From positions 1-32,043 of the forward strand of contig CANCJD010000008.1 in assembly GCA_947378275.1 (NCBI GenBank): DNA of 32,043 nucleotides, read 5' to 3'. Both the position numbers and the translations under genes were made by a program. Source of the stretch: Comamonadaceae bacterium (GTDB taxonomy: Bacteria > Pseudomonadota > Gammaproteobacteria > Burkholderiales > Burkholderiaceae_C). Shown here in pieces: positions 958-21,777 of this stretch. The first letter of the stretch is position 1. Every line of letters starts with the position of its first letter. The notes beneath the pieces were generated by a model, which saw only the letters and a program-made list of their open reading frames with translations, was not told the DNA's origin and made no database searches.

Positions 958-2277
958 ATGAAGATTTCGGTTTTTGGCACGGGGTATGTAGGCTTGGTTC
1001 AGGGTGCGGTACTCGCAGACGCTGGCCATCAAGTGACCTGCGTGGATTTGGATGAAAAGAAGTTGCAGGATTTGCGTGAAGGTGTGATTCCGATTTTCGA
1101 GCCTGGCCTGGAGGCCATTGTCAAAAGCGCCTTTGCCGACGGTCGCTTGGTGTTTACTTCTGACGCAGCCTTCGCGGTGCATCACTCTGACATTCAATTC
1201 ATCGCCGTTGGTACACCTTCCGGAGAGGATGGCAGCGCCGACCTGCGTCACGTGTTGGCGGTAGCCAAAACCATTGCGACGCACCTCACGGGATATGCGG
1301 TCATCGTGGACAAGTCCACCGTGCCTGTGGGTACCGCAGACCGTGTGTCTGAGGTCATCGCGCAGACTTTGAAAGAGCGCGGGCAGGACATTGCCTTTGA
1401 TGTAGTTTCCAACCCCGAGTTCCTGAAGGAAGGTGCGGCAGTGGCGGATTGCCAACGCCCCGACCGCATCGTCATTGGCACACATAGCGCAAGGGCGGAA
1501 GCTCTGATGCGCGAGTTGTACGAGCCCTTCAACCGCAACCATGACAAGATCCTTGTCATGAGCCCGCGCAGCGCGGAAATGACCAAATACGCCGCCAATT
1601 GCATGCTGGCCACCCGCATCAGTCTGATGAACGAAATGGCCATCGTGGCCGAGGGCTTGGGTGCTGACATTGAGTCTGTGCGCCAGGGCATAGGTAGCGA
1701 TCAGCGCATTGGCTACCACTTCATTTACGCAGGTGCCGGATACGGTGGAAGCTGTTTCCCCAAGGACATCAGCGCGCTGGTCAAGTCAGCACAGCAAATT
1801 GGCATGGATCCGTTTATTTTGAATGCTGTGGAAGCGCGCAATCAAGCGCAAAAGCGCGTCATATTCGAAAAACTCAAGTCACACTTCCAAGGTGAATTGC
1901 GCAACAAGGTCATTGCACTGTGGGGGCTGGCCTTCAAACCCAACACCGACGACATGCGCGAAGCGCCCAGCCGTGTGCTGATGGAGGCCTTGTGGGCGGA
2001 GGGCGCCAAAGTGCAGGCCTATGACCCCGCAGCCATGGAAGAGGCGCAACACCTTTATGGGAATAAACCCGAGCTGATGCTGGTGGGCACCAAAGAGGCG
2101 GCATTGACTAACGCGGATGCGTTGGTCATCATGACCGAATGGCGTCAGTTCAAGGCACCGAATTTTGATGCCATCAAGCAAGCGCTGAAATCTCCCGCAA
2201 TTTTCGACGGACGGAATTTGTTCGAGCCTGCGCGAATGAAAGAGCGCGGCTTTGACTACTTTGGCATCGGCCGCTGA
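958..2277 (+). CDS. ugd: UDP-glucose 6-dehydrogenase
   Basis: The 439-aa enzyme oxidises UDP-glucose twice, with NAD+, to UDP-glucuronate in the cytoplasm. The N-terminal Rossmann fold opens with the NAD motif GTGYVGL (residues 7-13). The catalytic cysteine is C266 in GYGGSCFPKD, and the substrate-domain helix with K210 (MTKYAANCMLATR) is intact. Length is normal for the family. The ATG is preceded by a purine-rich AGGGGGC about 5 bp upstream. A sigma-70-like pair TTGCGT (906-911) and TAGCAT (928-933), 16 bp apart, may be its promoter. A weak Pho-box-like repeat (TCTTCAT-N4-ACGTCAT, 878-895) lies just before it. The gene runs tail to tail with galU, which makes its substrate. UDP-GlcA can feed capsule, exopolysaccharide or glucuronosyl lipids; the GT4 enzyme two genes away is a candidate user. 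Confidence 0.96.
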   Translation: MKISVFGTGYVGLVQGAVLADAGHQVTCVDLDEKKLQDLREGVIPIFEPGLEAIVKSAFADGRLVFTSDAAFAVHHSDIQFIAVGTPSGEDGSADLRHVLAVAKTIATHLTGYAVIVDKSTVPVGTADRVSEVIAQTLKERGQDIAFDVVSNPEFLKEGAAVADCQRPDRIVIGTHSARAEALMRELYEPFNRNHDKILVMSPRSAEMTKYAANCMLATRISLMNEMAIVAEGLGADIESVRQGIGSDQRIGYHFIYAGAGYGGSCFPKDISALVKSAQQIGMDPFILNAVEARNQAQKRVIFEKLKSHFQGELRNKVIALWGLAFKPNTDDMREAPSRVLMEALWAEGAKVQAYDPAAMEEAQHLYGNKPELMLVGTKEAALTNADALVIMTEWRQFKAPNFDAIKQALKSPAIFDGRNLFEPARMKERGFDYFGIGR

Positions 2278-2508
2278 TGATTTGGAGAAAACTTCTTCCA
2301 CTGTAAAGTCAGTGCCTGCATCGAATTTTTTTCGGAAGGCCTAGGCTACTTGCAAATATCGATAGGGTATTCGCAACGCATTTCTCCTTTATGCCCTCGA
2401 CATTGGAAGGCATGCACGCCCAAGCTTTGAAGTGGTACTAATCTCAAAAATAAGCGGAGTTGAAAGATTGCAAAAAAAAACTTCCCGGATGCAAGCGACA
2501 AAAAAACG

Positions 2509-3378
2509 TTAGTACGTTAGCGTTGACAGATAGGTCTTAAATTCTTTAGAGGTTTCAGGGTGACGCAAAGCCAACTCAACGGTTGCTTTCAGGAATCCCA
2601 GCTTGCTTCCACAATCGTAACGAACGCCTTCGTAAGAAAAAGCGTAGACAGCCTCCTGAAGTAAAAGACTTTGGATGGCATCTGTGAGTTGGTACTCGCC
2701 GCCAGCACCGGGTTTGAGGCTTTGGAGATGCTGAAAAATCGATGGTGTAAAAATATACCGACCAACGACCCCCAAATTAGATGGCGCCTCTTCCGGCGCA
2801 GGTTTTTCAACGATTTGCGACAGTTTTACCAGTCGTTCCGCAATACTGGTACCCGCAACGACTCCGTAAGAGCGACTTTGTGAAGGTTGAATGGCTTCAA
2901 CTGCCACCACAGAACTTCTATAGTGTTTATGTATCTCCACCAATTGTTGAAGTACGCCTGGCTTGTGATCGATAAGATCGTCCGCCAACACGACGGCAAA
3001 TGACTCGTCGTTTACTAGGGAGGCTGCGCAATTGACTGCATGCCCTAACCCTAGCGCTTCAGGCTGGCGTACATAAACACAGTTGATATGCTTGGGCTTG
3101 ATGTTGCGTACAAGAGCTAATAACTCAGAACGCTGCTTTGCTTCCAGCTCAAATTCAAGTTCAAATGAAGTGTCAAAATGATCTTCAATGCTGCGCTTGC
3201 TTCGGCCGGTCACAAAAATCATTTCAGTGAACCCTGCTTCTATGGCTTCCTCTACTGCATATTGAATAAGAGGCTTGTCAACGACGCACAGCATTTCTTT
3301 TGGACTGGCCTTGGTGGCGGGCAAAAATCTAGTCCCCAAGCCGGCTACAGGAAATACAACTTTGCGAATAGTTTTCAT
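2509..3378 (-). CDS. galU: UTP-glucose-1-phosphate uridylyltransferase
   Basis: The 289-aa protein makes UDP-glucose from glucose-1-phosphate and UTP. The nucleotidyltransferase signature VFPVAGLGTRFLPATKASPKE lies at residues 8-28, followed by VVDKPLIQYAVEEA and the GRSKRSIEDHFD segment, all typical of bacterial GalU. Length matches the family (about 290-300). The coding sequence is more AT-rich than the phn genes, as is the 231-bp tail-to-tail gap to ugd. Reading leftward past the stop there is a nine-T run at about 2472-2480 after a poor stem, so termination is uncertain. The leader contains a perfect 10-bp inverted repeat (3413-3438). The glycosyltransferase gene upstream points the same way, 205 bp away, so co-transcription is possible. 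Confidence 0.96.
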   Translation of the reverse strand: MKTIRKVVFPVAGLGTRFLPATKASPKEMLCVVDKPLIQYAVEEAIEAGFTEMIFVTGRSKRSIEDHFDTSFELEFELEAKQRSELLALVRNIKPKHINCVYVRQPEALGLGHAVNCAASLVNDESFAVVLADDLIDHKPGVLQQLVEIHKHYRSSVVAVEAIQPSQSRSYGVVAGTSIAERLVKLSQIVEKPAPEEAPSNLGVVGRYIFTPSIFQHLQSLKPGAGGEYQLTDAIQSLLLQEAVYAFSYEGVRYDCGSKLGFLKATVELALRHPETSKEFKTYLSTLTY

Positions 3379-3412
3379 GTGAGCATCAAATTGTTAAGGG
3401 AATTGGTATTTT

Positions 3413-3438
3413 GTGTCTTGCACTTCCCTGCAAGACAC
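3413..3438 (-). repeat. perfect 10-bp inverted repeat in the galU leader
   Basis: GTGTCTTGCA (3413-3422) and TGCAAGACAC (3429-3438) are exact reverse complements around a 6-nt loop. The repeat lies 35-60 bp before the galU ATG and downstream of the co-directional glycosyltransferase gene. Neither strand has a T tract after the stem, so it is not a canonical terminator. It may be an operator or a 5' leader hairpin that tunes read-through from the upstream gene. Confidence 0.6.
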
Positions 3439-3583
3439 CATTGTCAGCAAGCGAACGATGCAAGGAAGTCTGGATTTTTTCTTGTCCATGGCGTTGACAA
3501 CACACCCATGCGCCGCTCGGCGCTTGCACGCTTGTGCCAACTGCGGCCAACCCGCACATTAATGGCGGAACTCAATGTGATCA

Positions 3584-4867
3584 TCACGCTGCGGCGGTCG
3601 TGACGTCCGTCGCAAACAACTGTATGTGTTGACGCATCACATGGTGGAAGACGCCTTCGGTTCTTTCAACAATCATGCGCCAACTCAGGGAGCGCGCACT
3701 CAGACAGGCTTGTTCTGCCAAGACGAGCATTAACTCTCTGTTGTTGAGCAGTGTTTGAACACCCATTTCAAAGTCAAATTCAAACTGCGTTCGTGCCAAC
3801 ACGCCATTGACGCCGCTTTGAATCAACTCTCCTGCAGCAGCGTGATCAAAAGCCACCACCGCCAACCTAGAGGCCATGGCTTCCAAAGTCACATTGCCAA
3901 AAGTTTCAGTTTGACTTGCAAAAGCAAAAATATCGGCACTGGCATAGTGTTGCGCCAAGTGAGCACCTGTTTGAAAGCCTGCAAAGATCACGTCTGGGTT
4001 TTCTTTTTCTAAGCTTTCGCGCATGGGTCCGTCCCCCACCAGCACGAGTTTGAGGTCTGCGTGTCGATGCTTAAGATTTTGATAGGTTTGAATGACCAAT
4101 TTCAGGTTCTTTTCAGGGGCCAATCGACCGACATAAAGCAACACTCTGCTTGCATCATCAGCGTTCCAGGTTTTTCTCAGCGTAGCGCTGCGATGCGCAG
4201 GCGAGAAAGTGTCGGTGTCAACGCCTCTGGGTACGACGTATAAATGTTTGAACCCGGCATGGCTTAACTCATGTTGCAACTGACTGGTGGGCACCATCGT
4301 GGCTTGTGCCGAATTGTGGAATTTTTTCAAGTAAGCCATGATGGCGCCACTGGACCATCCAATCCCATAGTGCTGGCTGTAGGCGTGAAAGTTGGTACGG
4401 AAGTCGGTGCTGATCGGTAATTTCAGTTTGCGCGCCACTTGCAGTGCCGACCATCCCAAGGGCCCTTCGGTAGCGATGTGCACGATGTCCGGCCTTTGGC
4501 GGGACCACAGGCGCAGCAACTCGCGTTTGGCGGGCAATCCGAAGCGTAACTGCTTGTAAAAAGGAATGGGAAAGCCGCGCACCAAGACCTCTTGGTAGCT
4601 GCTGTTGACCGTCGCCACGTCGGCGCCGGGTTGGCGAGGTCGTACCAACCAGATGACATGACCAAGTCCCTGCAATCCCTGCACAATCTTGGACAAGGTG
4701 TGCGCTACGCCATTGATGTCAGGTGGGTAGGTTTCGGTGACCACCGCGATATTGAGTGCGGCACGCGCGTTGCTAATGCGCTCGACTTGCAGGTGCGGTT
4801 CAATTTTCATGGCGCCACTGTGCCCAAGGACTGCGACTTTTTTATGAACCTTCGGTGACGCTGTCAT
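3584..4867 (-). CDS. GT4-family glycosyltransferase, Agt/MgtA-like (candidate glycolipid synthase)
   Basis: The 427-aa protein has the two-domain GT-B fold of family GT4. The N-terminal part carries VTETYPPDINGVAHTL (about residues 43-58), the acceptor-side signature of lipid mannosyl- and glucosyltransferases. The C-terminal domain has LLYVGRLAPEKN and the nucleotide-sugar motif E-x7-E in ETFGNVTLE. No membrane span is evident, so it is probably peripheral on the inner membrane. The first ATG (4867) overlaps a CTGTCAT heptamer and has no clear Shine-Dalgarno; M20 (ATG at 4810) begins close to the conserved region and is an alternative start. Agt of Agrobacterium is, as I recall, a GT4 enzyme making glucosyl- and glucuronosyl-diacylglycerol under phosphate stress. 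The nearby ugd, galU and plcP-like genes fit that role, but the substrate is inferred. It could instead serve exopolysaccharide. Confidence 0.85.
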   Translation of the reverse strand: MTASPKVHKKVAVLGHSGAMKIEPHLQVERISNARAALNIAVVTETYPPDINGVAHTLSKIVQGLQGLGHVIWLVRPRQPGADVATVNSSYQEVLVRGFPIPFYKQLRFGLPAKRELLRLWSRQRPDIVHIATEGPLGWSALQVARKLKLPISTDFRTNFHAYSQHYGIGWSSGAIMAYLKKFHNSAQATMVPTSQLQHELSHAGFKHLYVVPRGVDTDTFSPAHRSATLRKTWNADDASRVLLYVGRLAPEKNLKLVIQTYQNLKHRHADLKLVLVGDGPMRESLEKENPDVIFAGFQTGAHLAQHYASADIFAFASQTETFGNVTLEAMASRLAVVAFDHAAAGELIQSGVNGVLARTQFEFDFEMGVQTLLNNRELMLVLAEQACLSARSLSWRMIVERTEGVFHHVMRQHIQLFATDVTTAAA

Positions 4868-4899
4868 GAATTTTTTGTGCGATCACCAACCCGGCAGTT

Positions 4900-4932
4900 T
4901 TGTCACTAAATTTTCATGCAAAAGCGTGACAG
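4900..4932. promoter_or_regulatory. candidate Pho box(es) between divergent genes
   Basis: On the plus strand TTGTCAC-TAAA-TTTTCAT (4900-4917) matches the CTGTCAT/C direct-repeat Pho-box pattern at 11 of 14 positions with the correct 11-bp period. On the minus strand an exact CTGTCAC half site (4932-4926) overlaps it, but its partner is poor. The region separates the glycosyltransferase gene (leftward) from the DUF962-like gene (rightward). No -10 hexamer lies at the ideal 10-bp distance; TTCTAT at 4933-4938 is 15 bp from the plus-strand site. The call is therefore tentative. Confidence 0.4.
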
Positions 4933-4997
4933 TTCTATGCCAAGGCGCCCGCGCAGCCGCGAGCGGCGCCTTCAGCCCCTTTTTTCCAGGAGATTTC

Positions 4998-5612
4998 ATG
5001 CAGTCGTTTTTTCAACTCGTCAACGTTCAGCGCTGGGACGACCACCGCTATTACCACCACAGCCGTATCAACCAGTTTCTGCACCTGATCAGCGCTATGT
5101 CTTTCTTGGTGGCCTATGTGTTTTTGTTCATTGATCCTGTAGTGTCGGCATTGATTGCATGGTTGTTTTCCATGAGTACGCGCCAGATGGGACACTTTTT
5201 CTTTGAGCCCAAAGGTTTCGATGCGGTTAACCAAGCCACACATGAGCACAAAGAAGACATCAAAGTCGGCTACAACTTGAATCGCAAAATTGTGTTGTTG
5301 AGTGTTTGTGCTTTCATTCCTGTGCTGGCGTACTGGATGCCCGAGTATCTGCAATGGGCAGTGCCCCAAGCCTATGAAGACACCCCCGTGCGCATGACGG
5401 CGATCGCTTGGCTGATGCTCGGTGTGGCAGGTCTGGTTTTTCGCGTCTTGCAACTCTGGAAGCAGGACAGCCTGATGGCTGGTTTGGCATGGGGATTCAA
5501 GATCATTACCGACCCTGTGCACGACATCAAGATGTACCACAAGGCCCCGCTCTACCTCCTGCGGGGCCAGCGCTTAGACCCGATGGATCATGTCAAAGGC
5601 GCGCAGCACTAA
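4998..5612 (+). CDS. DUF962/Mpo1-like small membrane protein
   Basis: I take the start at ATG 4998, 5 bp after a clear CCAGGAGA, giving 205 aa; the frame stays open upstream to 4866 but that extension looks non-coding. Four hydrophobic segments are visible, at about 29-42, 44-58, 96-112 and 137-150. Residues about 18-26 read HSRINQFLH (H-x3-N-x3-H), and about 65-73 read RQMGHFFFE (Q-x-G-H-x3-E). These two motifs are what I expect in DUF962 proteins, the family of yeast Mpo1, an iron-dependent dioxygenase acting on 2-hydroxy fatty acids. The family call is from motif pattern only. The gene ends 4 bp inside the converging aminotransferase gene. Its position among lipid genes fits a membrane-lipid role, which remains inference. 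Confidence 0.5.
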   Translation: MQSFFQLVNVQRWDDHRYYHHSRINQFLHLISAMSFLVAYVFLFIDPVVSALIAWLFSMSTRQMGHFFFEPKGFDAVNQATHEHKEDIKVGYNLNRKIVLLSVCAFIPVLAYWMPEYLQWAVPQAYEDTPVRMTAIAWLMLGVAGLVFRVLQLWKQDSLMAGLAWGFKIITDPVHDIKMYHKAPLYLLRGQRLDPMDHVKGAQH

Positions 5613-7285
5613 GCAGCGCGAAACCTCGCCGTCAACATCTCTTTGAGTACCTGGCGGCGAATCTTTTTACCGGTTTGCGCTTCAGGCGCCCACCACCAAC
5701 CGTCGGTTTGCATGCTCTTGGCGGCCAGCACAAAGCGCTGGCAGAAGTCCTCAAACGCTGCATCGTCAAAATTGAAGCTGAAAATCATGCGACCCGTTCC
5801 CACCCAACTCAGAGCAATTCCTTGCGCACGCAAATAGTATTGCAGCAGCCAGTTGTAACGGCTGGGCACGTCGTAAAGTACCGACCAAATGGTTTCCATT
5901 CCGGCTACACGCACTGGGACGCCCGCCGCTTGCAAGCGCTCGTTCAGCAAAGATTGGCGCTGGACCCAGGTGTCCGATGCTGCCGCGTACAAAGAGGCAA
6001 GATCGGGAGTGTCGAGCGACTTCAGAAACACATTCATGGCGCACATGACATAGGGATGGGCATTGAAGGTTCCACGGGCAAAGCAGATGTCGCCCGGTTT
6101 GTCTTCTTGAAAGCGTTTCATCCAGTGCGCTTTGCCGCAGATCACGCCCACTGGCAGACCGCCACCCAGGGTCTTTCCATAGGTCACCAGATCGGCCTGG
6201 ATGCCAAAGTATTCCTGTGCGCCACCCTTGGCCAATCGAAATCCCAGGAATACCTCGTCCAAGATCAGTGCGATGCCTTTGGCGCTGCATACGGCGCGCA
6301 GTTCGGTCAGCCATTGCGTGTAGGCGGCGCGGTCGTAGGCCACGTGGCGGGTGCCGTCTACCAGCGTGGAGTCGGTGGGTGCCGCGCGGTTAGGGTGCAT
6401 GGCTTGAAGGGGGTTGATCAGCACGCAAGCGATGTCGTTGCGGTTGCGCAGCACCCGCAAGGTGTTGGGGTGCATTTCATTCAATGTGAGCGTGTCTTTG
6501 GACGGCGGCATGGGGTTGCCGGGACCGGGCTGTACATCATCCCACCAGCCGTGGTAGGCGCCAGTGAAGCGTACGATTTTCGGCTTGCGCGTGTGGTAGC
6601 GTGCCAGGCGTACAGCCTGCATCACCGCCTCTGTACCAGACATGTGGAAGGAGACCTCATCCATGCCAGAGATTTGGCACAGGCGCTGTGCGTTGTCGAG
6701 CACGATGGGGTGGTAGGAACCAAGCACCACGCCCAATGGCTGCGCCAGCGCCGCGCCTTCGCTCATACTGGCTTTGTAGTAGTCCGAGCCCAACAGGTTG
6801 ACGCCGTAAGAGCCGGTCACGTCAATGAAGCGGTTTCCGTCCAAATCGGTCAGCCACACTCCGCTGCTTTCGCGCCAAAAGCTGCCCAGCTTGACGTACT
6901 GTGCCAGCAGGCTGCGGAACTGGTAGGGCACACGGTACTGGCTGATGAGCTGCAAATCCGACAGCATGGGCCGCGCTGCGTCGGACTGCGCCAGAGTCTG
7001 GGGGCTCTGGTCTTTCAAAAGCCCGCCGAGTTGTGCCAACGCTGTGCGCCGACGCTGTTCTACCGACAACGGCGCGCCGTCGACAGCGTACCAAGTGGCG
7101 TCGGGGTAGGAGTAGCTCGGTATCCATTTCGACACCCGCTTGGCCATGCGCAGGTGGCCCCCCAGCGATGGGTACTTGGCCAGCGAAAGCTGCAAGCGTT
7201 GCCAAGCCTTGGGAAGGACGACTAAACCCAGTGACGCCGCACCACCCCACACTGCCATTGACATGACTGCCTCAGAACCGTCCAT
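5609..7285 (-). CDS. class III (glutamate-1-semialdehyde-like) PLP aminotransferase with N-terminal extension
   Basis: The 558-aa protein is a fold-type I, class III PLP enzyme. SGTEA (216-220) and YHGWWDD (244-250) are the phosphate- and ring-binding segments, ILDEVFLGFR holds D343, and the Schiff-base lysine is K371 in TYGKTLGGGLPVG. Glutamate-1-semialdehyde aminomutases are about 430 aa. The extra length is an N-terminal region of about 110 residues starting with a hydrophobic stretch (about 8-26) that could anchor it to the membrane, followed by a basic, tryptophan- and tyrosine-rich linker. A normal hemL is expected elsewhere, so this is probably not a haem enzyme. It diverges from psd across only 49 bp and meets the DUF962-like gene tail to tail with a 4-bp overlap. 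I cannot name its substrate; the neighbours suggest an amino-group transfer linked to lipids. Confidence 0.85.
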   Translation of the reverse strand: MDGSEAVMSMAVWGGAASLGLVVLPKAWQRLQLSLAKYPSLGGHLRMAKRVSKWIPSYSYPDATWYAVDGAPLSVEQRRRTALAQLGGLLKDQSPQTLAQSDAARPMLSDLQLISQYRVPYQFRSLLAQYVKLGSFWRESSGVWLTDLDGNRFIDVTGSYGVNLLGSDYYKASMSEGAALAQPLGVVLGSYHPIVLDNAQRLCQISGMDEVSFHMSGTEAVMQAVRLARYHTRKPKIVRFTGAYHGWWDDVQPGPGNPMPPSKDTLTLNEMHPNTLRVLRNRNDIACVLINPLQAMHPNRAAPTDSTLVDGTRHVAYDRAAYTQWLTELRAVCSAKGIALILDEVFLGFRLAKGGAQEYFGIQADLVTYGKTLGGGLPVGVICGKAHWMKRFQEDKPGDICFARGTFNAHPYVMCAMNVFLKSLDTPDLASLYAAASDTWVQRQSLLNERLQAAGVPVRVAGMETIWSVLYDVPSRYNWLLQYYLRAQGIALSWVGTGRMIFSFNFDDAAFEDFCQRFVLAAKSMQTDGWWWAPEAQTGKKIRRQVLKEMLTARFRAA

Positions 7286-7303
7286 ACGTAGAACCCTTTG
7301 TAA

Positions 7304-7329
7304 AACCTTGTTTGTATGACTTCAAGGTT
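7304..7329. promoter_or_regulatory. inverted repeat in the aminotransferase/psd divergent promoter
   Basis: AACCTTG (7304-7310) and CAAGGTT (7323-7329) are exact reverse complements separated by 12 bp, giving a dyad of 26 bp within a 49-bp divergent intergenic region. The size and position suit a dimeric repressor or activator acting on both genes. The right arm ends 5 bp before the psd ATG, so it may also overlap that ribosome binding site. No regulator gene lies nearby. Confidence 0.45.
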
Positions 7330-7334: not shown

Positions 7335-8222
7335 ATGATGACTTTGAAAAATGCACTGCACGCCCTGGGCGCCCAAGAAGACTTGAATTTCCTGTTGACC
7401 AATCGGATACCCCGGCTGGCACTTACGCGCTTTATGGGTTGGTTCAGCCAGCGCACCAACCCGTGGGTGCGTGACCTGTCCATTGCCACCTGGAAGTTGT
7501 TTGCCGACCTGGACCTGCTGGAGGCCAAGAAGCAGCACTTTGACAGCCTGCACGACTGCTTCATCCGTGAGCTCAAACCCGGCGCACGCACGATCGATCC
7601 CGACCCACGAACCCTGGTGAGCCCCTGCGATGGCATCGTGGGCGCCATGGGCCGCGTGGAGGGCGACAAGGTGTACCAGGCCAAAGGATTTCCTTACACC
7701 CTCACTGACTTGCTGGGTCCCCTGGGCGCGGACAGTCCCTGGCAGGATGGTGTGTTTGTGACGATTCGCATCACTTCGTCCATGTACCACCGCTTTCATG
7801 CACCCTATGACCTGCGGCTGAACGGCGTGGATTACTTTGCTGGTGACACTTGGAACGTCAACCCGATTGCCCTCAAACGGGTTGAAAAGCTGTTTTGCAA
7901 AAACGAGCGTGCGCTTCTGCGGGTGGATGTAGGGCAGGAGCGCTACCCCGTTGCCTTGGTGCCGGTGGCCGCGGTGCTCGTGGCGAGCATCCGTTTGCAT
8001 GCGCTAAGCGAATTGCTCGATTCCCGTTACGAAGGGCCGGGTCACGTCGACTGCGACGCGAGCTATACGAAAGGCCAAGAGATGGGTTGGTTCCAACACG
8101 GATCGACCATTTTGGTGTTCGCACCCAGGGGCTTTGAATTCGCTCCTGGTATTCAGGAAGGCTCGCCTTTGCGTATGGGGCAAGCTCTGCTGCAACTACC
8201 CCGCGTGGAAGCAGCCAGCTGA
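7335..8222 (+). CDS. psd: phosphatidylserine decarboxylase
   Basis: The 295-aa proenzyme converts phosphatidylserine to phosphatidylethanolamine at the inner membrane. The self-cleavage motif is GST in WFQHGST; Ser257 would become the pyruvoyl group at the N terminus of a short alpha chain of about 39 residues. Upstream, the segment SPCDGIVGAMGRV (about residues 95-107) and SSMYHRFHAPYD (about 150-161) are conserved in the bacterial prokaryotic-type family. Two consecutive ATGs (7335 and 7338) could start it. The 3' end overlaps the converging lplT gene by 27 bp, so the two lipid genes share sequence. PE made here is the most likely parent of the lysolipid handled by LplT. Confidence 0.95.
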   Translation: MMTLKNALHALGAQEDLNFLLTNRIPRLALTRFMGWFSQRTNPWVRDLSIATWKLFADLDLLEAKKQHFDSLHDCFIRELKPGARTIDPDPRTLVSPCDGIVGAMGRVEGDKVYQAKGFPYTLTDLLGPLGADSPWQDGVFVTIRITSSMYHRFHAPYDLRLNGVDYFAGDTWNVNPIALKRVEKLFCKNERALLRVDVGQERYPVALVPVAAVLVASIRLHALSELLDSRYEGPGHVDCDASYTKGQEMGWFQHGSTILVFAPRGFEFAPGIQEGSPLRMGQALLQLPRVEAAS

Positions 8223-10332: not shown

Positions 10333-10366
10333 AGCGTATTCAATTTGTATGACTGATTGATGAAAG
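10333..10366 (-). promoter_or_regulatory. Pho box and -10 element for the plcP-lplT operon
   Basis: Read on the minus strand, CTTTCAT (10366-10360), a 4-bp CAAT spacer and CAGTCAT (10355-10349) form a direct repeat with 11-bp period. Each half matches CTGTCAT at six of seven positions. Ten bases later comes TACGCT (10338-10333), a plausible -10 hexamer at the usual PhoB-promoter distance. Start of transcription would be near 10326, about 65 nt before the plcP-like ATG. The site lies only 10 bp past the phnN stop codon. It is a pattern match, not a tested site. Confidence 0.65.
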
Positions 10367-11667: not shown

Positions 11668-11744
11668 CGAAGTCAAGCGTCGGGCGCGTCACAAAAAGGA
11701 AATATGGCCGTCTTAAAGTTTGTGCCAATCACGATAGCCCGCCC

Positions 11745-12892: not shown

Positions 12893-12898
12893 AGATTT

Positions 12899-14891: not shown

Positions 14892-15676
14892 TGTCCAACG
14901 AATCCCAAGCGCCATTGCTGCAAGTGCGAAACCTAAGCTGCGCCTATGGTGCGCGTGCCGTGGTGCGCGACATTTCTTTTGACCTGTGGCCTGGCGAAGT
15001 GCTGGCTGTGGTGGGCGAATCGGGCTCGGGCAAAAGCACACTGCTCAACGCGGTCGCGGCGCGCCATGCGCCCAGTGCTGGTCAGGTGGCCTTTGCGCTT
15101 AAAGACGCAGGCCTGCAGGACATATACGCGATGACCGAGGCGCAGCGCCGCATGCTGGCGCGAACCGACTGGGGCTTCGTGCACCAAAACGCTGCCGATG
15201 GACTGCGCATGAATGTCTCCGCTGGCGCCAATGTGGCAGAGCGTCTGATGGCCCTTGGCCAGCGCCACTACGGCGACCTGCGCGCCCAAGCCACTGACTG
15301 GCTGGAGCGTGTGGAAATCAGCCCCAGCCGCATGGACGACCGGCCTGACACCTTTTCGGGTGGGATGCGCCAACGTCTGCAAATTGCCCGCAACCTGATT
15401 ACCCAGCCCCGCTTGGTGTTTATGGACGAGCCCACCTCGGGGCTAGACGTGTCAGTGCAGGCGCGTCTTCTGGACATGCTGCGCATGCTGACCCGCCAAA
15501 TGGGTCTGGCGGCCATCATCGTCACCCACGATCTGGCGGTCGCGCGCCTTCTGGCGCAACGCATGCTAGTGATGCAAGGCGGTAAAGCGGTGGAAACCGG
15601 CTTGACCGATCAGGTGCTGGACGATCCCCAGCACCCCTACACCCAACTCTTGGTTTCCTCGGTGCTACAACCATGA
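14888..15676 (+). CDS. phnK: C-P lyase ABC-type ATPase PhnK
   Basis: The 262-aa protein has a complete ABC ATPase cassette: Walker A GESGSGKST (about 43-51), signature TFSGGMRQR (about 155-163), Walker B LVFMDEPTSG and the switch histidine in VTHDL. PhnK has no membrane partner; it docks on the PhnGHIJ core and is needed for C-P lyase activity. The family is related to oligopeptide-transporter ATPases, hence DppD-like annotations. Two ATGs (14888 and 14891) overlap the phnJ stop and either could be used. Its 3' end overlaps phnL by 4 bp. Confidence 0.95.
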   Translation: MMSNESQAPLLQVRNLSCAYGARAVVRDISFDLWPGEVLAVVGESGSGKSTLLNAVAARHAPSAGQVAFALKDAGLQDIYAMTEAQRRMLARTDWGFVHQNAADGLRMNVSAGANVAERLMALGQRHYGDLRAQATDWLERVEISPSRMDDRPDTFSGGMRQRLQIARNLITQPRLVFMDEPTSGLDVSVQARLLDMLRMLTRQMGLAAIIVTHDLAVARLLAQRMLVMQGGKAVETGLTDQVLDDPQHPYTQLLVSSVLQP

Positions 15677-16413
15677 CCCAGAACATAGCCCCCGCCTTGT
15701 CCACCACGCCCTTGCTGCACATGCAAGGTGTGAGCAAGCAGTTCGTTCTGCATCTGCAAGACAGCACGTCTTTGCCGGTACTGCACAACTTTGACTTGCA
15801 TCTGTTGCCAGGCGAATGCGTGCGCCTAAGTGGCCCCTCCGGCATGGGAAAGAGCACCGTGCTCAAGCTGGCCTTTGGCAACTACCGGGCATCCGCCGGT
15901 CATATCTGGGTACGCTCCACCGACGGCAAACTGGTCGATATAACCCAGGCGGACGCTCGCGCAGTGCTGCACCTGCGTAGCCAGGCCATGGGCTATGTGA
16001 GCCAGTTTTTGCGCGTGATCCCGCGCGTGGCGGCCATTGACATCGTGGCTGAGCCTCTGCTGGAGGCCGACGACACCCGTTTTACTGCGGCACAGGCCCG
16101 TGAGTTGGCCGCCCATTGGCTTGAACGCCTGCGTATTCCGTCCTCGCTGTGGCAACTGCCGCCCGCTACCTTTTCGGGCGGGGAGCAGCAGCGCATCAAT
16201 ATTGCACGCAGTTTCATCAAGCCCCGCCCGCTGCTGTTGCTCGACGAGCCCACAGCTTCGCTGGATCCGGAAAACACCCAGACCGTGATCGAGCTGATTG
16301 CGCAGGCGCGCGCCCAGGGCGTGGGCATCCTTGGAATTTTTCACGATAGTGCGGTCGCGCAGGCCGTGGCCAGCCGCACCGTGGCCATGCAAGCCGTTAA
16401 CACCACACCATGA
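15673..16413 (+). CDS. phnL: C-P lyase ABC-type ATPase PhnL
   Basis: The 246-aa ABC protein has Walker A GPSGMGKST (about 55-63), signature TFSGGEQQR and Walker B LLLLDEPTASLD, with the switch histidine in FHD. PhnL binds over PhnK in the C-P lyase complex and is required, with PhnG, H and I, for the nucleosidase step. The Walker A loop has Met (GMGKST) where many ABC proteins have Ala or Ser. It is linked to phnK and phnM by 4-bp ATGA overlaps on both sides. Confidence 0.95.
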   Translation: MTQNIAPALSTTPLLHMQGVSKQFVLHLQDSTSLPVLHNFDLHLLPGECVRLSGPSGMGKSTVLKLAFGNYRASAGHIWVRSTDGKLVDITQADARAVLHLRSQAMGYVSQFLRVIPRVAAIDIVAEPLLEADDTRFTAAQARELAAHWLERLRIPSSLWQLPPATFSGGEQQRINIARSFIKPRPLLLLDEPTASLDPENTQTVIELIAQARAQGVGILGIFHDSAVAQAVASRTVAMQAVNTTP

Positions 16414-17579
16414 ACAGCCCTACCTCCACCCCCTCTCTGTTGACCAACGCGCGCCTGGTGCTAGCGGACGAAATCATTCACGGCAGCTTGCAATGCCACA
16501 GCGGCCTGATCCAAGCAATCGACGCCGCACCTACCGCCGTGGCGGGGGCCATCGACCTGCAGGGCGACTACCTGCTGCCCGGCATGGTGGAAGTGCACAC
16601 CGACAATTTTGAACGCCATCTGATGCCCCGCCCCAAGGTGCGTTGGGACGACGCACCCGCGCTGTTGGCCCACGACGCCGAGATTGCAGCCTCCGGCATT
16701 ACCACCGTGCTCGATGCGCTGGGGGTGGGTGAGTCCGACCCCGACAGCGTGCGTGGCAGCGAATGGGATTCGGTGCTGGAGTGCTTAAGCGACTTTACCC
16801 AGCGCGGCGTGCTGCGCGCAGATCACCTTTTGCATGTCCGCTGCGAGCTGCCAGCGCCGAATACCCTGGAGCTGTTCCAACCTTTTGTGGGCAACCCGCT
16901 GGTACGCATGCTCTCGGTGATGGACCACACCCCAGGCCAGCGCCAGTGGGAAAACATCGAGCACGCCTGGATTTACTTCACCGGGAAAAAAGGTTGGAGC
17001 CAAGCTAAGTTTGAAGAGCGCGTCGCCCAATCTAAGGAACACCAGGCGCGCTACGCGCTGCCGCACCGCGCCTATTTCACTGACTATTGCAAGCAGCACG
17101 GCATTACCCTGGCAAGCCACGATGACACGACGGTGGAACATGTGGAACAGGCGCATGCGGAGGGAGCCACGGTCAGCGAGTTCCCCACAACGATCGCCGC
17201 AGCACAGGCGGCGCATGCGCGCCAAATGGCCACCATCATGGGCGGGCCCAATGTGGTGCGCGGCGGTTCGCACTCTGGCAATGTGTCTGCCATTGAACTG
17301 GCAAGGCTGGGCCTGGTGGATATTTTGTCGTCCGACTATGTGCCTGGCAGCCTGCTGTCGGCCATGGTGCGCCTTACCGAGACGGCAGGCATGACCTTGC
17401 CTCAGGCCAGCGCCCTGGTCAGCCGCAACCCGGCACAGTCGCTCGGTTTGCACGACCGGGGCAGTATCGCCGTGGGCCTGCGCGGCGATCTGGTGCAGGT
17501 GCGCATGACACCCTTGGCCGACGGGCGCCAGCAACCGGTGGTGCGTGCCGTGTGGCGTGGTGGAGTGCGGGTGGCCTGA
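16410..17579 (+). CDS. phnM: ribose 1-phosphonate 5-triphosphate diphosphatase PhnM
   Basis: The 389-aa amidohydrolase-fold enzyme removes pyrophosphate from alpha-D-ribose 1-phosphonate 5-triphosphate, giving the PhnJ substrate. The metal-binding motif H-x-D lies in [10 protein letters not shown] (about 60-69), ASHDDTT at about 235-241 gives further metal or catalytic residues, and [10 protein letters not shown] (about 288-297) with SDYVPG (about 309-314) closes the site. Length is close to E. coli PhnM (378). It is the last of the seven tightly overlapped genes. An 86-bp gap with its own Pho box separates it from phnC. Confidence 0.95.
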
Positions 17580-17582
17580 GTT

Positions 17583-17616
17583 TCGTCACCACGCTGACAC
17601 ACATGATTTCTATGCT
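17583..17616 (+). promoter_or_regulatory. Pho box and -10 element for phnCDE
   Basis: TCGTCAC (17583-17589), a 4-bp spacer and CTGACAC (17594-17600) form an 11-bp-period direct repeat matching CTGTCAT/C at 11 of 14 positions. Exactly 10 bp further is TATGCT (17611-17616), a good -10 hexamer. This is the same geometry as the site before the plcP-like gene. It begins 4 bp past the phnM stop codon and would start transcription near 17623, about 43 nt before the phnC ATG. The internal position suggests the transporter genes can be induced separately from phnGHIJKLM. Confidence 0.6.
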
Positions 17617-17630
17617 TCGCCCTATGCCAT

Positions 17631-17653
17631 CTGCCGGCACCTTAGCCCGGCAG
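17631..17653 (+). repeat. leader hairpin before phnC
   Basis: CTGCCGG (17631-17637) and CCGGCAG (17647-17653) are perfect 7-bp arms around a 9-nt loop. The stem ends 12 bp before the phnC ATG. No T tract follows, so it is not a strong terminator. It may protect the downstream message or reduce phnC translation. Confidence 0.5.
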
Positions 17654-17665
17654 CCAGAAACGCCC

Positions 17666-18478
17666 ATGCACACACTCCAACTTCACAATCTCAGCAAACG
17701 CTTCGGCGACACGATGGCTGTCCATGGCGTGTCGCTGTCCATTGAAGCGGGCAGCTTTATTGGCGTAATTGGACGCTCAGGCGCGGGCAAGTCGACGCTG
17801 CTGCGCATGATCAACCGGCTGAACGAGCCGACCTCCGGCACCGTGGAATTTGACGGCACGGTGGTTACCGATTTGCAAGGCCCGGCGCTGCGCCAATGGC
17901 GACGCAACTGCGCCATGGTGTTCCAACAGTTCAACTTGATTGGACGTTTGGATGTGATTACCAACGTCATGATGGGACGCCTGACCAGTGTGCCGACGTG
18001 GCGCTCGCTGCTTACGCTTTGGAGCGATGCCGATAAGCTTGCCGCCCTCGAAGCGCTGGACCGCTTCGGCATGGCCGACTACGCCGCCCAGCGCTGCGAC
18101 CAACTCTCCGGTGGCCAGCAACAACGTGTGGCGCTGTGCCGGGCGCTGGTGCAAGAACCCCAAATTATTTTGGCCGACGAGCCCATCGCCTCCCTGGATC
18201 CACGCAACACGCAGGTGGTGATGGACGCGCTGCGCAGCATCAACCGCGATATGGGTATCACCGTGCTGTGCAATTTGCACGCGCTGGATGTGGCGCGCAG
18301 CTACTGCGACCGGTTGGTGGGTATGTCAGCGGGACGGGTTGTTTTTGATGACGTTCCAGGCGCACTCAGCGAGGCCGTGGTGCAAGACCTCTACGGAATG
18401 GAGGCCGCTGAGGTGCAGGGTCACCACAGCACTGCTGCAGTGGTACTGCCCTTCGCTCGCCACGCACATAGCGCCTGA
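17666..18478 (+). CDS. phnC: phosphonate ABC transporter ATPase PhnC
   Basis: The 270-aa cytoplasmic ATPase powers phosphonate import with PhnD and the two PhnE permeases. Walker [10 protein letters not shown] (about 35-43), signature LSGGQQQRV, Walker [13 protein letters not shown] and the switch histidine in NLHALD are all present. I start at ATG 17666, where homology to PhnC begins. The frame is open 38 codons further back, but that stretch overlaps phnM and contains the promoter and hairpin, so it is probably not translated. E. coli PhnC is about 262 aa. A 62-bp gap leads to phnD. Confidence 0.95.
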
Positions 18479-18540
18479 CAGCGCTGGATTTTTGGCCATT
18501 TTTTCTCTTCCCTCTTCCCTCACCAAAAAAAGGAAACACT

Positions 18541-19440
18541 ATGTTCAATCGTCGTGCACTGCTCGCACTCGCTGCTTCCACCGCCCTAATGGCTTCGGCC
18601 CAGGCGCAAGACTGGAAAGCCAAGTACCCTGAACTGGTGTTTGCCAGTATCCCCGCTGAAAACGCTGCCGCAGTGACCGAGCAGTTTGCCGATTTTGCAG
18701 CCTACCTCTCCCGTGAAATTGGCGTCCCCGTCAAGCTGCGCATCGCCGGTGACTATGCCGCTGTCATCGAAGGTCAACGCGCAGAACAAATTCACATTGC
18801 TTACTATGGACCCGCCGCTTATGCGCGCGCCCGCATGATCGGCGTCAAGACCACTCCGTTTGCCATTGAAGTGGCCAAGGGTGGAGTCAAAGGCTATTAC
18901 TCGGTTTTGTGGGTGAAAGCGAATTCGCCGTACCACAAGGTGGAAGACCTCAAAGGCAAGAACATTGCATTGGTCGACCCCAACTCCACCTCGGGCAACA
19001 ACGTACCACGCTATGCCCTTTCCAAAATGGGCATCAAGCCGGAAGACTTTTTCGGCAAGGTGATTTACAGCGGCAGCCACACCAATGCCATCGTGGCGCT
19101 CAATCAAGGTACGGTCGACGTGGCCGCCAACCAGTGGTACAGCGACTCCGATTCCGAAGTGACGCGCATGGCCGACAAGGGCATGGTCAAAAAAGAAGAC
19201 TTCCGTGTCATCTACAAGTCAGACCAGATCGTGAACTCTCCCATTGCTTACCTCGACAGTCTGCCGGCCGACCTGAAGAAAAAAATTGAGCAGGCGTTCT
19301 TTGACTTTGCTAAGAAGGACAAAGCTGCGTTTGACAAGTTCTCCAACGGCAAATTTGAACCCTTCCAGCCTGTGACGCATGACGCATATTTGCCCATCAT
19401 CGAACTCAACAAGTTCGTCGATGCACTGCGCAAGAACTAA
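18541..19440 (+). CDS. phnD: phosphonate-binding periplasmic protein PhnD
   Basis: The 299-aa protein has a signal peptide (MFNRRALLALAAS..., cleavage probably after AQA at 22) and exports to the periplasm. The mature part is a phosphate/phosphonate-binding type II fold: the segments FASIPAENAAAV, IHIAYYGPAAYARA, DPNSTSGNNVPRYAL and YSGSHTNAI supply the anion-binding loops typical of PhnD. AAAGGAAA lies 5-6 bp before the ATG and is a good ribosome binding site, consistent with high expression of a binding protein. It lies between phnC and the permease genes. The exact ligand cannot be read from sequence. Confidence 0.95.
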   Translation: MFNRRALLALAASTALMASAQAQDWKAKYPELVFASIPAENAAAVTEQFADFAAYLSREIGVPVKLRIAGDYAAVIEGQRAEQIHIAYYGPAAYARARMIGVKTTPFAIEVAKGGVKGYYSVLWVKANSPYHKVEDLKGKNIALVDPNSTSGNNVPRYALSKMGIKPEDFFGKVIYSGSHTNAIVALNQGTVDVAANQWYSDSDSEVTRMADKGMVKKEDFRVIYKSDQIVNSPIAYLDSLPADLKKKIEQAFFDFAKKDKAAFDKFSNGKFEPFQPVTHDAYLPIIELNKFVDALRKN

Positions 19441-19446
19441 GTCGCC

Positions 19447-20304
19447 GTGAGCGCAGCCGCTGACCATTCCAAAGCCTACGCCCATGCCGTGGCGGCCAAG
19501 CGCCGCCAACTGTGGCTGGGCTTGCTGGCGCTGGCGGTGTGCGTGTTGTTTGCGGGTCAGGCCGCGGAAATTTCGATCGCCAAGTTTGCCGACAAAATTG
19601 GCAACTTCACCAGCTATATCGACCGAATCAGCCATCTGGAAAGCGGCCAGTGGGTGCTGAGCGATCCGAAGGAATGGTTTTGGGGCTGGAAAAAATGGCT
19701 GGCGCTGATGGGTGAGACACTGCTGATGGCTTATGTGGGCACGGTACTGGGCGCCTTCGGTGCTTTGCTGCTGTGCTTCTTGGCCAGTAAAAATATCACC
19801 GACCGCCAATGGCTGGTGTTTGGCGCCCGGCGTTTGTTGGAGTTCTCACGCACCGTCCCTGAGATGGTGTTCGCGTTGATTTTTGTTGCCGCTTTTAGCC
19901 TGGGGCCCTTGCCGGGCATTTTGGCCTTGGCAATTCACACGGCTGGAGCCTTGGGCAAACTGTTTGCCGAGGTCACGGAAAACATCGATATGAAGCCGGT
20001 CGATGGCGTGCTGGCCAGTGGCGGCAGCTGGGTGCAAAAAGTGCGTTTTGCAGTGCTGCCGCAGGTCGCATCCAATTTCGTGAGCTATGCCCTGCTTCGC
20101 TTTGAAATAAATGTGCGCGGCGCTGCCGTGCTCGGCTTTGTAGGCGCAGGTGGCATTGGTCAAACGCTGCTTGAAGTCATTCGCAAGTTTTATTACGCCG
20201 ATGTCAGCGCCTTGTTGGTGCTGATCATCGCAACCGTCATGGTGATTGACGCGCTCACCGAGCGCATTCGTCACCGTCTGCTGGGACAGGAGCGTGCTGC
20301 ATGA
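19447..20304 (+). CDS. phnE: phosphonate ABC transporter permease PhnE1
   Basis: The 285-aa inner-membrane protein has about six spans, an early one at about 20-37 and a cluster from about 90 to 275. The cytoplasmic coupling loop carries the conserved E...GASW-like region GGSWVQKVRFAVLPQ (about 196-210) and FVGAGGIGQTLLE. It starts with GTG at 19447, 6 bp after the phnD stop; no ATG is near. The 3' end overlaps phnE2 by 4 bp (ATGA). Two tandem phnE genes probably form a heterodimeric channel, a common arrangement in phn loci. Confidence 0.93.
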   Translation: MSAAADHSKAYAHAVAAKRRQLWLGLLALAVCVLFAGQAAEISIAKFADKIGNFTSYIDRISHLESGQWVLSDPKEWFWGWKKWLALMGETLLMAYVGTVLGAFGALLLCFLASKNITDRQWLVFGARRLLEFSRTVPEMVFALIFVAAFSLGPLPGILALAIHTAGALGKLFAEVTENIDMKPVDGVLASGGSWVQKVRFAVLPQVASNFVSYALLRFEINVRGAAVLGFVGAGGIGQTLLEVIRKFYYADVSALLVLIIATVMVIDALTERIRHRLLGQERAA

Positions 20305-21176
20305 GTGCGCAAAGCCGACTCCGCAATGCGCCGCAGTGGTCTGGTAAGCCATTGGCATTGCGCACCCGCTACCCGGCTCATTTCCAGCCCTTTTTCCGTG
20401 GACAGAGTACAGCGGTGACCATAGTGGCACTGGCTATCGCTGTATTCGGCTATGGCATCTACAGCCTGGACATGAGCTATGGCCGGATCGTTGCCGGACT
20501 CGGGGAACTCGGATCTATGGCGCTTCGCATGCTGCCACCTACACCGGGCAGTTGGGCATTGGCAGGCAGCTATGTGCATGCCATGGTGGAGACCTTGGCG
20601 ATTGCCTTGCTGGGAACGCTCATGGCCGCGGTCCTTGCCTTCCCATTGGGATTTTTGGCGGCGCGTAACACCACGCTCAACCGCCTGGTGAAGTTTATGG
20701 CGCGGCGCTGCTTTGACACCTTGCGTGGCGTGGATATCCTGATCTGGGCCTTGGTCTGGATCAACGTCGTGGGCCTGGGTCCGTTCGCCGGGGTGCTCGC
20801 GCTTTTCATGTCCGACCTAGGCAGCTTTGGCAAACTTTTTTCCGAGGCGATCGAAGCGGCGGACCATAAACCCGTCGAAGGCGTGGTGTCGACCGGGGGC
20901 TCCTGGTTGGCCTCGGTTCGTTTTGGCATCTTGCCGCAGTTGCTGCCGGTGCTGCTGAGCCAGGTGTTGTATGCGTTTGAGTCCAATACCCGCAGCGCCT
21001 CCATCATCGGCATCGTGGGCGCTGGCGGCATCGGACTGATCTTGTCGGAGCAAATTCGCACGCTGGAGTTGCAGCAAATGTCGTTTGTGATTTTGCTGAT
21101 TCTGGCCACCGTCTCGGCCATCGACTTTTTCTGCGCACGCATCCGCTTTGCCATCATCGGCGTGCGCGCCTGCTAG
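20301..21176 (+). CDS. phnE: phosphonate ABC transporter permease PhnE2
   Basis: The 291-aa second permease shares the PhnE layout with its neighbour: an isolated span at about 36-54, a cluster from about 93 onward, the loop GGSWLASVRFGILPQ and the IVGAGGIGLILSEQI segment. The two paralogues match each other in these blocks but differ elsewhere, so they are an old duplication, not a recent repeat. Translation is coupled to phnE1 by the ATGA overlap. A perfect 7-bp hairpin follows its stop by 4 bp. Confidence 0.93.
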   Translation: MSAQSRLRNAPQWSGKPLALRTRYPAHFQPFFRGQSTAVTIVALAIAVFGYGIYSLDMSYGRIVAGLGELGSMALRMLPPTPGSWALAGSYVHAMVETLAIALLGTLMAAVLAFPLGFLAARNTTLNRLVKFMARRCFDTLRGVDILIWALVWINVVGLGPFAGVLALFMSDLGSFGKLFSEAIEAADHKPVEGVVSTGGSWLASVRFGILPQLLPVLLSQVLYAFESNTRSASIIGIVGAGGIGLILSEQIRTLELQQMSFVILLILATVSAIDFFCARIRFAIIGVRAC

Positions 21177-21180
21177 TCAT

Positions 21181-21197
21181 GCAGCGCGATGCGCTGC
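21181..21197 (+). repeat. intercistronic hairpin after phnE2
   Basis: GCAGCGC (21181-21187) and GCGCTGC (21191-21197) pair perfectly around a 3-nt loop, between the phnE2 stop and the HD-oxygenase start. Only two T residues follow. It may partly end transcription or protect the 3' end of the phn message, lowering expression of the last gene. Confidence 0.5.
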
Positions 21198-21216
21198 TTC
21201 CACCATGGAGATTTGT

Positions 21217-21777
21217 ATGTCACTGACCATCCCCGAAATCGTGGAACTGCTGGGCAGCCGCGCCACCACTTGGTACGGCCAGGAGGCCGTGAGCCAGCTC
21301 GACCATGCCCTGCAATGTGCGCACATGGCTGAAAAAGCCAATGAGTCACCAGAAACCGTAGTCGCCGCACTGTTGCATGACTTGGGACATATGCTGAGTC
21401 CACTCCAGGAGCCCGTGGCCGATCAAGATGTGCTGCCAACGAAAGACGATTTGCATCAGTTTGTTGCGTTGCCTTTTTTGCGTGGCCTGTTCTCAGACGC
21501 TGTGCTGGAGCCGATCAAGCTGCATGTCGACGCCAAGCGCTACCTGTGCGCGGTGGATGCGAGTTACTGGAATGACCTGTCACCAGCGTCCAAGCACAGC
21601 CTGGAGCTGCAAGGGGGCTGCTATGACGAAGCCCAAGTGCGCGCCTTTGAGACCTTGACCTACTACGCCGAAGCGGTGCGCCTGCGCCGCTATGACGATT
21701 TGGCCAAGATCCCCGGGCAACCCACGCCACCTTTGGCGCATTACGCCGCCTTGATGGATGCCGTCGTGGCCGCCTGA
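21217..21777 (+). CDS. PhnZ-like HD-domain phosphonate oxygenase
   Basis: The 186-aa HD-fold protein resembles the mixed-valent diiron oxygenase PhnZ, which cleaves 1-hydroxyphosphonates to phosphate and a carboxylate. Y20, E23, H30, H54, D55 and H58 reproduce the spacing of PhnZ Y24, E27, H34, H58, D59 and H62 exactly, with a constant offset of four. H80, H103, K107 and D160 or D161 are candidates for the remaining ligands and substrate contacts (PhnZ numbering is from memory). I start at ATG 21217, 6 bp after GGAG. No PhnY- or TmpA-like hydroxylase, which would make its substrate, is present in the window. Proteins of this kind recur in phosphonate operons. It is the last gene of the phn unit. 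Confidence 0.82.
   Translation: MSLTIPEIVELLGSRATTWYGQEAVSQLDHALQCAHMAEKANESPETVVAALLHDLGHMLSPLQEPVADQDVLPTKDDLHQFVALPFLRGLFSDAVLEPIKLHVDAKRYLCAVDASYWNDLSPASKHSLELQGGCYDEAQVRAFETLTYYAEAVRLRRYDDLAKIPGQPTPPLAHYAALMDAVVAA

Follow-up and report, generated by a model that had tools for sequence, protein, structure and literature searches.

A conserved psd-aminotransferase-DUF962-glycosyltransferase cassette in a probable phosphorus-starvation island of a Comamonadaceae bacterium

Within the limited literature covered here, most descriptions of membrane-lipid remodelling at low phosphorus concern marine bacteria, rhizobia-type bacteria and Pseudomonas. The closest described system is PlcP-Agt remodelling (Pseudomonas, Phaeobacter, SAR11, Agrobacterium): in the available portions of the reports PlcP adjoins Agt (PMC4796936, PMC8528852), the two make glucosyl- or glucuronosyl-diacylglycerol (DAG) in Pseudomonas and SAR11 (PMC8528852, PMC4796936), and known Agt enzymes are of the GT4 family, with UDP-glucose or UDP-glucuronate as substrates (PMC8231724). 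The available part of a further study treats plcP and phn genes as low-phosphate markers and describes no shared gene cluster for them (PMC6852614). Here we analyze a 32,043-nucleotide stretch (the window) from a freshwater Comamonadaceae bacterium, in which positions 958 to 21777 bring together a PlcP-like phosphoesterase, a lipid-type GT4 glycosyltransferase, a UDP-sugar supply and an upstream Pho-box-like site with the C-P lyase system for phosphonate use (phnGHIJKLM with phnN, phnCDE and a gene for an HD oxygenase). The locus departs from PlcP-Agt remodelling in that the search for an Agt-like partner found none in this clade, in the coupling of LplT to the PlcP-like protein and in its additional aminotransferase, DUF962 protein and second Psd; it departs from described C-P lyase systems in having DUF1045 beside phnN, in the joined lipid genes and in its phn promoter, where a Pho-box-like site was not found.

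The conserved core of this block is a four-gene cassette comprising a second phosphatidylserine decarboxylase (psd2), a class III aminotransferase (AT), a DUF962 protein and a GT4 glycosyltransferase, with phn, plcP, lplT and ugd as changing partners. Judging from gene content and comparison with relatives, we consider it likely that this lipid cassette forms the center of an island for phosphorus starvation. An earlier note on this DNA had read the block as a single phosphorus-scarcity programme; comparison supports the island, but it shifts the center to psd-AT-DUF962-GT4, reduces the phn link to a partial one and leaves galU outside. With a Burkholderiales cassette that neighbors genes for PlcP, ornithine lipids, betaine-like lipids, the Pho system and phosphonate use, the phosphorus-limitation response would gain new enzymes and probably a new lipid; no description of it was found in the titles and abstracts of a limited literature search.

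The psd2-AT-DUF962-GT4 cassette

The window is one entire contig of a 2.2-Mb metagenome-assembled genome (MAG), 70% complete and in 197 contigs, and judged by AT its closest named relatives are MAGs assigned to Comamonadaceae, Burkholderiales and Rhodoferax. Searching genome contigs with AT yielded 225 stretches (208 relatives), of which the best 80 loci were used, near relatives being over-represented among them. Co-occurrence was scored in a panel of 101 genomes, made up of a genus-level group of 61 and 40 others. In a class-level sample of 369 genomes AT was present at E<=1e-120 in 11, including the window's own, and the other ten were examined. Five loci (L053, L068, L077, L079, L085) are MAG contigs titled Bordetella parapertussis, a label that appears to be wrong, their position in the AT tree resembling that of environmental Burkholderiales. 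Zwartia hollandica and Malikia granosa are among the environmental isolates that carry the cassette. The cassette occupies the following positions:

3584-4867, - strand: cassette GT4 glycosyltransferase, probably with a lipid acceptor (Pfam GT4 domains; NCBIfam matches below cut-off)
4868-4997: divergent GT4/DUF962 promoter with Pho-box-like repeats at 4926-4943 (- strand) and 4900-4917 (+ strand), from pattern scan and alignment
4998-5612, + strand: DUF962/Mpo1-like membrane protein, putative metal-dependent oxygenase (Pfam PF06127, 19.9 bits, cut-off 24)
5609-7285, - strand: AT, class III aminotransferase, probably membrane-anchored (PF00202)
7335-8222, + strand: psd2, second phosphatidylserine decarboxylase (PF02666, 183.9 bits, over cut-off)

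Among loci with enough flanking sequence, psd adjoins AT in 75/75, DUF962 does so in 67/68 (the exception being L095, where they lie about 5.9 kb apart) and GT4 in 54/60 (exceptions L063, L064, L075, L092, L095 and L103). The DUF962-like protein and the long aminotransferase, proposed earlier as unrecognized members of the island, are thereby borne out as being among its most constant genes. Across the 101 genomes AT and psd2, scored at E<=1e-40 (a limit that leaves a contig-end psd fragment of G027 uncounted), occur together in 51 and are both missing in 49; psd2 alone is never seen, and the sole genome with AT alone (G010) has its AT 185 bases from a contig end. For AT and GT4, again scored with an E-value limit, under which G005 counts as lacking GT4 despite a tblastn match (L120), the genus-level genomes divide into 47 with both, one with AT only, one with GT4 only and 12 with neither. 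The pattern is looser in the other 40 genomes, with 3, 1, 10 and 26, respectively.

The window's psd is not the sole housekeeping copy, a further psd being present in the same genome (G000:C29). At least two PF02666 matches were obtained in 44 of the 48 genus-level genomes with AT, and one in the remaining 4; the 13 without AT gave one match in 6, none in 5 and two in 2, both of the latter from fragments (in G047 the two matches are neighboring fragments, and in G027 the second is the contig-end fragment).

The association extends to distant genomes. Six of the ten from the class-level sample show a psd (L133, L134, L135, L136, L137, L139), in L136 at 2.4 kb from DUF962, and in L139 a single strand carries, in succession, AT, a large protein with a GT4 domain, psd and DUF962. 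The large protein of L139 (10844-13552, between AT and psd) has 902 residues, with a C-terminal GT4 domain and some 520 unrecognized N-terminal residues; Pfam does not show a PHP domain in it. Two genomes of one distant genus carry AT and DUF962 as a single fused protein (L141 8265-10493, 742 residues; L142 9007-11223, 738 residues), to which the DUF962 profile matches with E about 1e-25 and 6e-27, respectively, in a search of these two proteins. A DUF3419 gene, putatively BtaA-like, lies beside both fusions, in the place where psd would be.

Phosphorus genes and promoters around the cassette

The remainder of the block consists of the following features:

958-2277, + strand: ugd, UDP-glucose 6-dehydrogenase, UDP-glucuronate supply (TIGR03026, 455.8 bits)
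2509-3378, - strand: galU, UTP-glucose-1-phosphate uridylyltransferase (TIGR01099, 364.5 bits, over cut-off)
8196-9440, - strand: lplT, lysophospholipid transporter, the genome's second copy (NF008397, 463.2 bits, over cut-off)
9460-10260, - strand: plcP-like metallophosphoesterase of the phospholipase C type, with lplT following after 19 nt
10349-10366, - strand: Pho-box-like site in front of plcP-lplT, differing from the consensus at 2 positions
10376-10981, - strand: phnN, ribose 1,5-bisphosphokinase (TIGR02322, 161.8 bits, over cut-off)
10951-11676, - strand: DUF1045 phosphonate-operon protein (PF06299, 150.5 bits)
11790-17579, + strand: phnGHIJKLM, C-P lyase core and accessory proteins, phnG start approximate (PhnJ PF06007, 494.9 bits)
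17552-21176, + strand: phnC, phnD, phnE and phnE, phosphonate ABC transporter (TIGR02315, TIGR03431 and TIGR01097 twice, all over cut-off)
21148-21777, + strand: HD-domain phosphonate oxygenase, Phn-HD/PhnZ-like (TIGR03276, 205.4 bits, cut-off 214.6)

Every gene listed in the earlier note (ugd, galU, GT4, DUF962, AT, psd, lplT, the plcP-like gene and the phn set) is present in its place, and the C-P lyase set is complete (phnGHIJ core, phnKLM, phnCDE). The genome's other lplT match (G000:C6) is 47% identical. Clustering of open reading frames (ORFs) places ugd in 22/80 cassette loci. As a neighbor galU was found in one of the 80 (L049), so that galU, previously counted as part of the island, is not a conserved neighbor.

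Recurrent neighbors of the cassette, named by profile from one representative per cluster, include PPK2, PhoX, PhoR, PhoB, PhoU, HpnW, PhnX and, below cut-off, PsrA, together with an OlsB-type acyltransferase (166.7 bits, below the cut-off of 350) and the putatively BtaA-like DUF3419. At least one phosphorus gene of our panel lies in the flanks of 55/80 loci, bearing out in many relatives the proposed phosphorus-starvation setting of the lipid genes: plcP in 44, phn-type genes in 21, ppk2 in 19, olsB in 18, phoX in 10, phoU in 7, phoB and phoR in 6 each and the btaA-like gene in 4. Of 28 loci whose flanks reach nearly 10 kb in either direction, 20 have such a gene (plcP 19, olsB 12, phn-type 8, ppk2 7, phoX 6, phoB, phoR and phoU 5 each, btaA-like 3). 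By simple arithmetic, the chance that a single-copy gene of a 3.5-Mb genome falls within such a stretch of 21.6 kb is about 0.6%, and the excess over this figure is not convertible to a probability, the loci being related. The fullest arrangement is seen in L080, L085, L091 and L093 as one run, phoR-phoB-phoU-phoX-olsB-(lplT)-psd-AT-DUF962-GT4-plcP-phnC-phnD-phnE-psrA-hpnW-phnX-HD, with lplT only in L080 and L085.

Linkage to phn genes recurs as well. In the 11-row clade of the AT tree that contains the window, all ten other rows (L032-L041) have phn next to plcP and the cassette on contigs of differing length, one of 411 kb (L034); L033 reaches phnN only before its contig ends, and lplT is absent beside plcP in L032, L033, L035 and L040. 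Further lineages show other phn-cassette arrangements, and the side on which phn lies varies between lineages. The cassette has C-P lyase genes as neighbors in 12/80 loci and any phn gene in 20/80, L061 having the HD gene only. On the AT tree (FastTree), with 22 linked and 30 unlinked rows counted and 51/103 left uncounted for short flanks or as outside the annotated set, phn linkage needs 7 changes, at least 5 of them forced by starred branches; the linkage arose more than once. PhnJ is present in 26 of the 101 genomes, and phn lies near an island lipid gene in 10 of these: G000, G004, G024, G035, G017, G027, G039 and G048 are linked on one contig (in G048 through plcP, its cassette being on another contig), and G038 and G016 via contigs that end inside phn genes.

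Promoter regions were scored with a Pho-box consensus of 14 scored positions. The window holds 5 sites with at most 3 mismatches against 1.64 expected, a number reached by 3/100 shuffles, and its two best sites match at 12/14 positions, one upstream of plcP and the other (4926-4943) between GT4 and DUF962. Real intergenic regions, with a false rate of about 10-12%, served as background in the relatives, since dinucleotide shuffles gave only about 1-3%. Scores of at least 11/14 were reached in 53/68 regions upstream of DUF962 (160 nt) versus 18/150 other intergenic regions (150 nt); at 200 nt in 32/67 for GT4 and 11/22 for ugd versus 14/122; at 120 nt in 15/77 for AT and 14/77 for psd versus 16/167; and in 1/39 for lplT. 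In an alignment of the window with L032-L059, the plcP site and the GT4/DUF962 repeats are, by eye, the best-conserved stretches. Strict patterns drawn from this alignment occur in 26/41 plcP regions versus 2/144 background regions and in 48/68 DUF962 regions versus 0/144; deriving from the alignment itself, they express conservation and not independent prediction, the consensus score being the independent test. A loose half-site pattern was seen in 50/68 regions for DUF962, 38/67 for GT4, 16/22 for ugd, 13/41 for plcP, 2/39 for lplT, 42/77 for AT and 19/77 for psd (background 18/144); the plcP-type pattern upstream of AT (18/77) was set aside because it probably reflects the start of psd read in reverse complement and not a box, a caveat that applies equally to the half-site counts of AT and psd. 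The divergent DUF1045/phnG region (11677-11790) has a conserved GTCACAAAAA...AAATA and another conserved stretch near phnG, neither of them a Pho box.

Starting from the observed gene content, conservation, co-occurrence, fusion and promoter sites, we infer PhoB control, every reaction step and the lipid product as follows. At low phosphate PhoB would activate the GT4/DUF962 and plcP-lplT promoters, and PlcP would split phospholipids into diacylglycerol and a phosphorylated head group. GT4, standing in for an Agt-like enzyme, could then glycosylate the diacylglycerol with UDP-sugars from Ugd (and GalU), while AT at the membrane, DUF962 as an oxygenase and the additional Psd would build or alter an amine-bearing lipid that might preserve membrane charge and curvature without phosphate. 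LplT would bring lysolipids back, and the phn genes would supply phosphorus from phosphonates.

PlcP, Agt and the cassette glycosyltransferase

A rival account is plain PlcP-Agt remodelling, in which GT4 makes glucosyl- or glucuronosyl-DAG and AT, DUF962 and psd2 are accessory or unrelated. It overlaps with the island reading, so that the odds of the two are not mutually exclusive, and we hold it to be rather unlikely. The co-occurrence of plcP, ugd and a lipid-type GT4 in the window speaks for it, as does the synthesis of such lipids by PlcP-Agt in Pseudomonas and SAR11. With the LpxH model the PlcP-like protein reaches about 47 bits, short of the cut-off of 134, and an LpxH identity was rejected because the genome has a separate LpxH of 231.7 bits on another contig. 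The best NCBIfam matches of the cassette GT4, neither of which reaches its cut-off, are to GlcNAc-PG synthase (155.5 bits) and alpha-MGlcDAG synthase (109.7 bits).

In this order the usual partner of plcP is a different glycosyltransferase. A gene matching the window's PlcP-like protein, which served as reference, lies within 200 nt of an Agt-like GT4 in 37 of the 38 genomes having both. The Agt-like set comprises 39 matches of at least 277 bits in 38 genomes, leaving out fragments in G063 (two near plcP, of 170 and 155 bits) and in G012 (144 bits). No Agt-like gene was found in the window's 70%-complete genome, where the query matched only the cassette GT4 at 37% identity, nor in its clade and the group sister to it, which include genomes that are 94-99% complete (G004 and G035 in the former; G021, G028 and G050 in the latter). 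Among the 48 genus-level cassette genomes, plcP lies at most 10 kb from AT in 16/31 without an Agt-like gene versus 1/17 with it (Fisher p=0.0015, uncorrected for relatedness). Because the Agt-like gene was not found and plcP is near AT mostly in genomes without it, plcP may have moved from Agt to the cassette in the window's group, with the cassette GT4 taking over the role of Agt. The neighboring ugd fits the use of UDP-glucose or UDP-glucuronate by known Agt enzymes. Both genes coexist in 17 of those 48 genomes, and in L070, L072 and L076 an Agt-like gene stands beside plcP in the same locus as the cassette GT4, which argues that the latter need not be an Agt; furthermore, AT, DUF962 and psd2 are more constant than plcP or ugd in these loci, which were found through AT. 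The window's GT4, described earlier as being of the glycolipid-synthase type, is distinct from the usual Agt-like partner.

Alternative readings and the cassette enzymes

Several observations weigh against an island dedicated to phosphorus starvation. Many of the 80 loci are akin to each other, so that their counts are not independent, and 8/28 full-flank loci (L060, L062, L083, L090, L095, L097, L098, L100) have no panel phosphorus gene. No psd was seen in the stretches of L138 (a 12.4-kb contig), L140 (cut), L141 and L142. The window shows no enrichment of a shorter box pattern (68 matches versus 61 expected, with as many in 23/100 shuffles); no window site reaches 10/14 at AT/psd, ugd, galU or phn; the plcP consensus score is weak, at 9/41 regions versus 14/122 background (200 nt); and no Pho box was found at the phn promoter, with 0/9 relatives for DUF1045, 0/9 for phnG and none in the window. 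Pho-box-like sites are present at two lipid promoters but were not found at phn. No link between phn and lipid genes was seen in the other 16/26 PhnJ genomes, including G007 and G058, each assembled into one or two contigs, and the cassette-free G047. In the genus-level group, genomes with the cassette do not have PhnJ significantly more often (21/48) than those without it (4/13, p=0.53). In relatives phn genes are repeated neighbors of the lipid genes, but linkage holds in a minority of PhnJ genomes.

The full-flank loci that have no panel phosphorus gene and the distribution of PhnJ would agree with a cassette that is a general module of envelope or lipid diversification (e.g. sphingolipid- or lipopolysaccharide-related), its nearness to phosphorus genes being a by-product of shared mobility or of scattered Pho genes. 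The same reading gains from a Sphingomonas parapaucimobilis plasmid (L132), where psd-AT-DUF962 and a methyltransferase lie about 10 kb from serine palmitoyltransferase in a stretch with no phn, plcP or olsB matches. Against it, nine phosphorus gene groups recur beside the cassette in varied arrangements and the cassette's own promoter carries conserved Pho-box-like sites, and we regard a general module as improbable.

The chemistry of AT bears on a further alternative, namely that AT is an ethanolamine-phosphate phospho-lyase freeing phosphate from phosphoethanolamine, which PlcP would presumably release when acting on phosphatidylethanolamine. Ethanolamine-phosphate phospho-lyases are class III pyridoxal phosphate (PLP) enzymes. 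Among the matches listed, however, the closest solved structure to AT by sequence is the AMT domain of the mycosubtilin synthase MycA (177 bits versus 126 for the best glutamate-1-semialdehyde aminomutase; profile E=1e-65 against 6kfm), and no phospho-lyase is named among the best 60 of 69 matches. The MycA domain is also closest among the fold matches listed, at 29% identity in the fold alignment, and no phospho-lyase is named among the 50 listed; these used an alignment-based model (pLDDT, the predicted local distance difference test, 85.9), a single-sequence model having been set aside at pLDDT 35.5. The PLP lysine K371, in a TYGK motif, is invariant in 30/30 AT sequences and aligns with the 6kfm lysine. 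All 30 have an N-terminal hydrophobic stretch (17-residue Kyte-Doolittle mean of at least 1.2, and at least 1.6 in 24/30, a value reached elsewhere in the protein in 7/30), and the model forms a single helix at residues 3-36; AT is for these reasons likely to be membrane-anchored through this helix, which would be unexpected with a soluble substrate. On the closest relatives of AT among the sequence and fold matches listed, the phospho-lyase identity was set aside and appears very improbable.

By closest relative and PLP lysine, AT is a class III aminotransferase of the MycA AMT group, with a beta-ketoacyl substrate only putative; it differs from the MycA domain in standing alone rather than within a synthase and in its N-terminal helix. 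The cassette DUF962 keeps several histidines and is a distant match to the Mpo1 2-hydroxy fatty acid dioxygenase family, differing in that it falls below the Pfam cut-off and forms a separate subfamily tied to AT; two other PF06127 matches, over cut-off, occur elsewhere in the window's genome. An aminated phosphorus-free lipid is the leading guess at the cassette's product, suggested by the enzyme set. More specifically, and only tentatively, the cassette may be an undescribed pathway that, under phosphate starvation, yields a lipid with an amine but no phosphorus, possibly an aminated glycolipid, with the membrane-bound transaminase and the His-rich oxygenase installing the amine and the product mimicking phosphatidylethanolamine.

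That the island is a chance neighborhood of this MAG or an assembly join, as its incomplete and fragmented source genome might suggest, is scarcely credible given the same phn-plcP-cassette order in L032-L041, on a 411-kb contig in one case.

Two features flank the block. At 295-780 (- strand) lies an ORF of 161 aa that contains a cysteine cluster of the CxxCxxCC type and matches nothing in Pfam above cut-off; it might be ykgJ and has relatives in 15/80 cassette loci. Downstream of the phn genes, at 22079-26667 (+ strand), a five-gene ABC transporter of the urea/amide or branched-chain amino acid type resembles UrtDEABC but stays under the urea-specific cut-offs; ATPases near the cassette in L067, L078, L083 and L084 are 37-38% identical to two of its genes.

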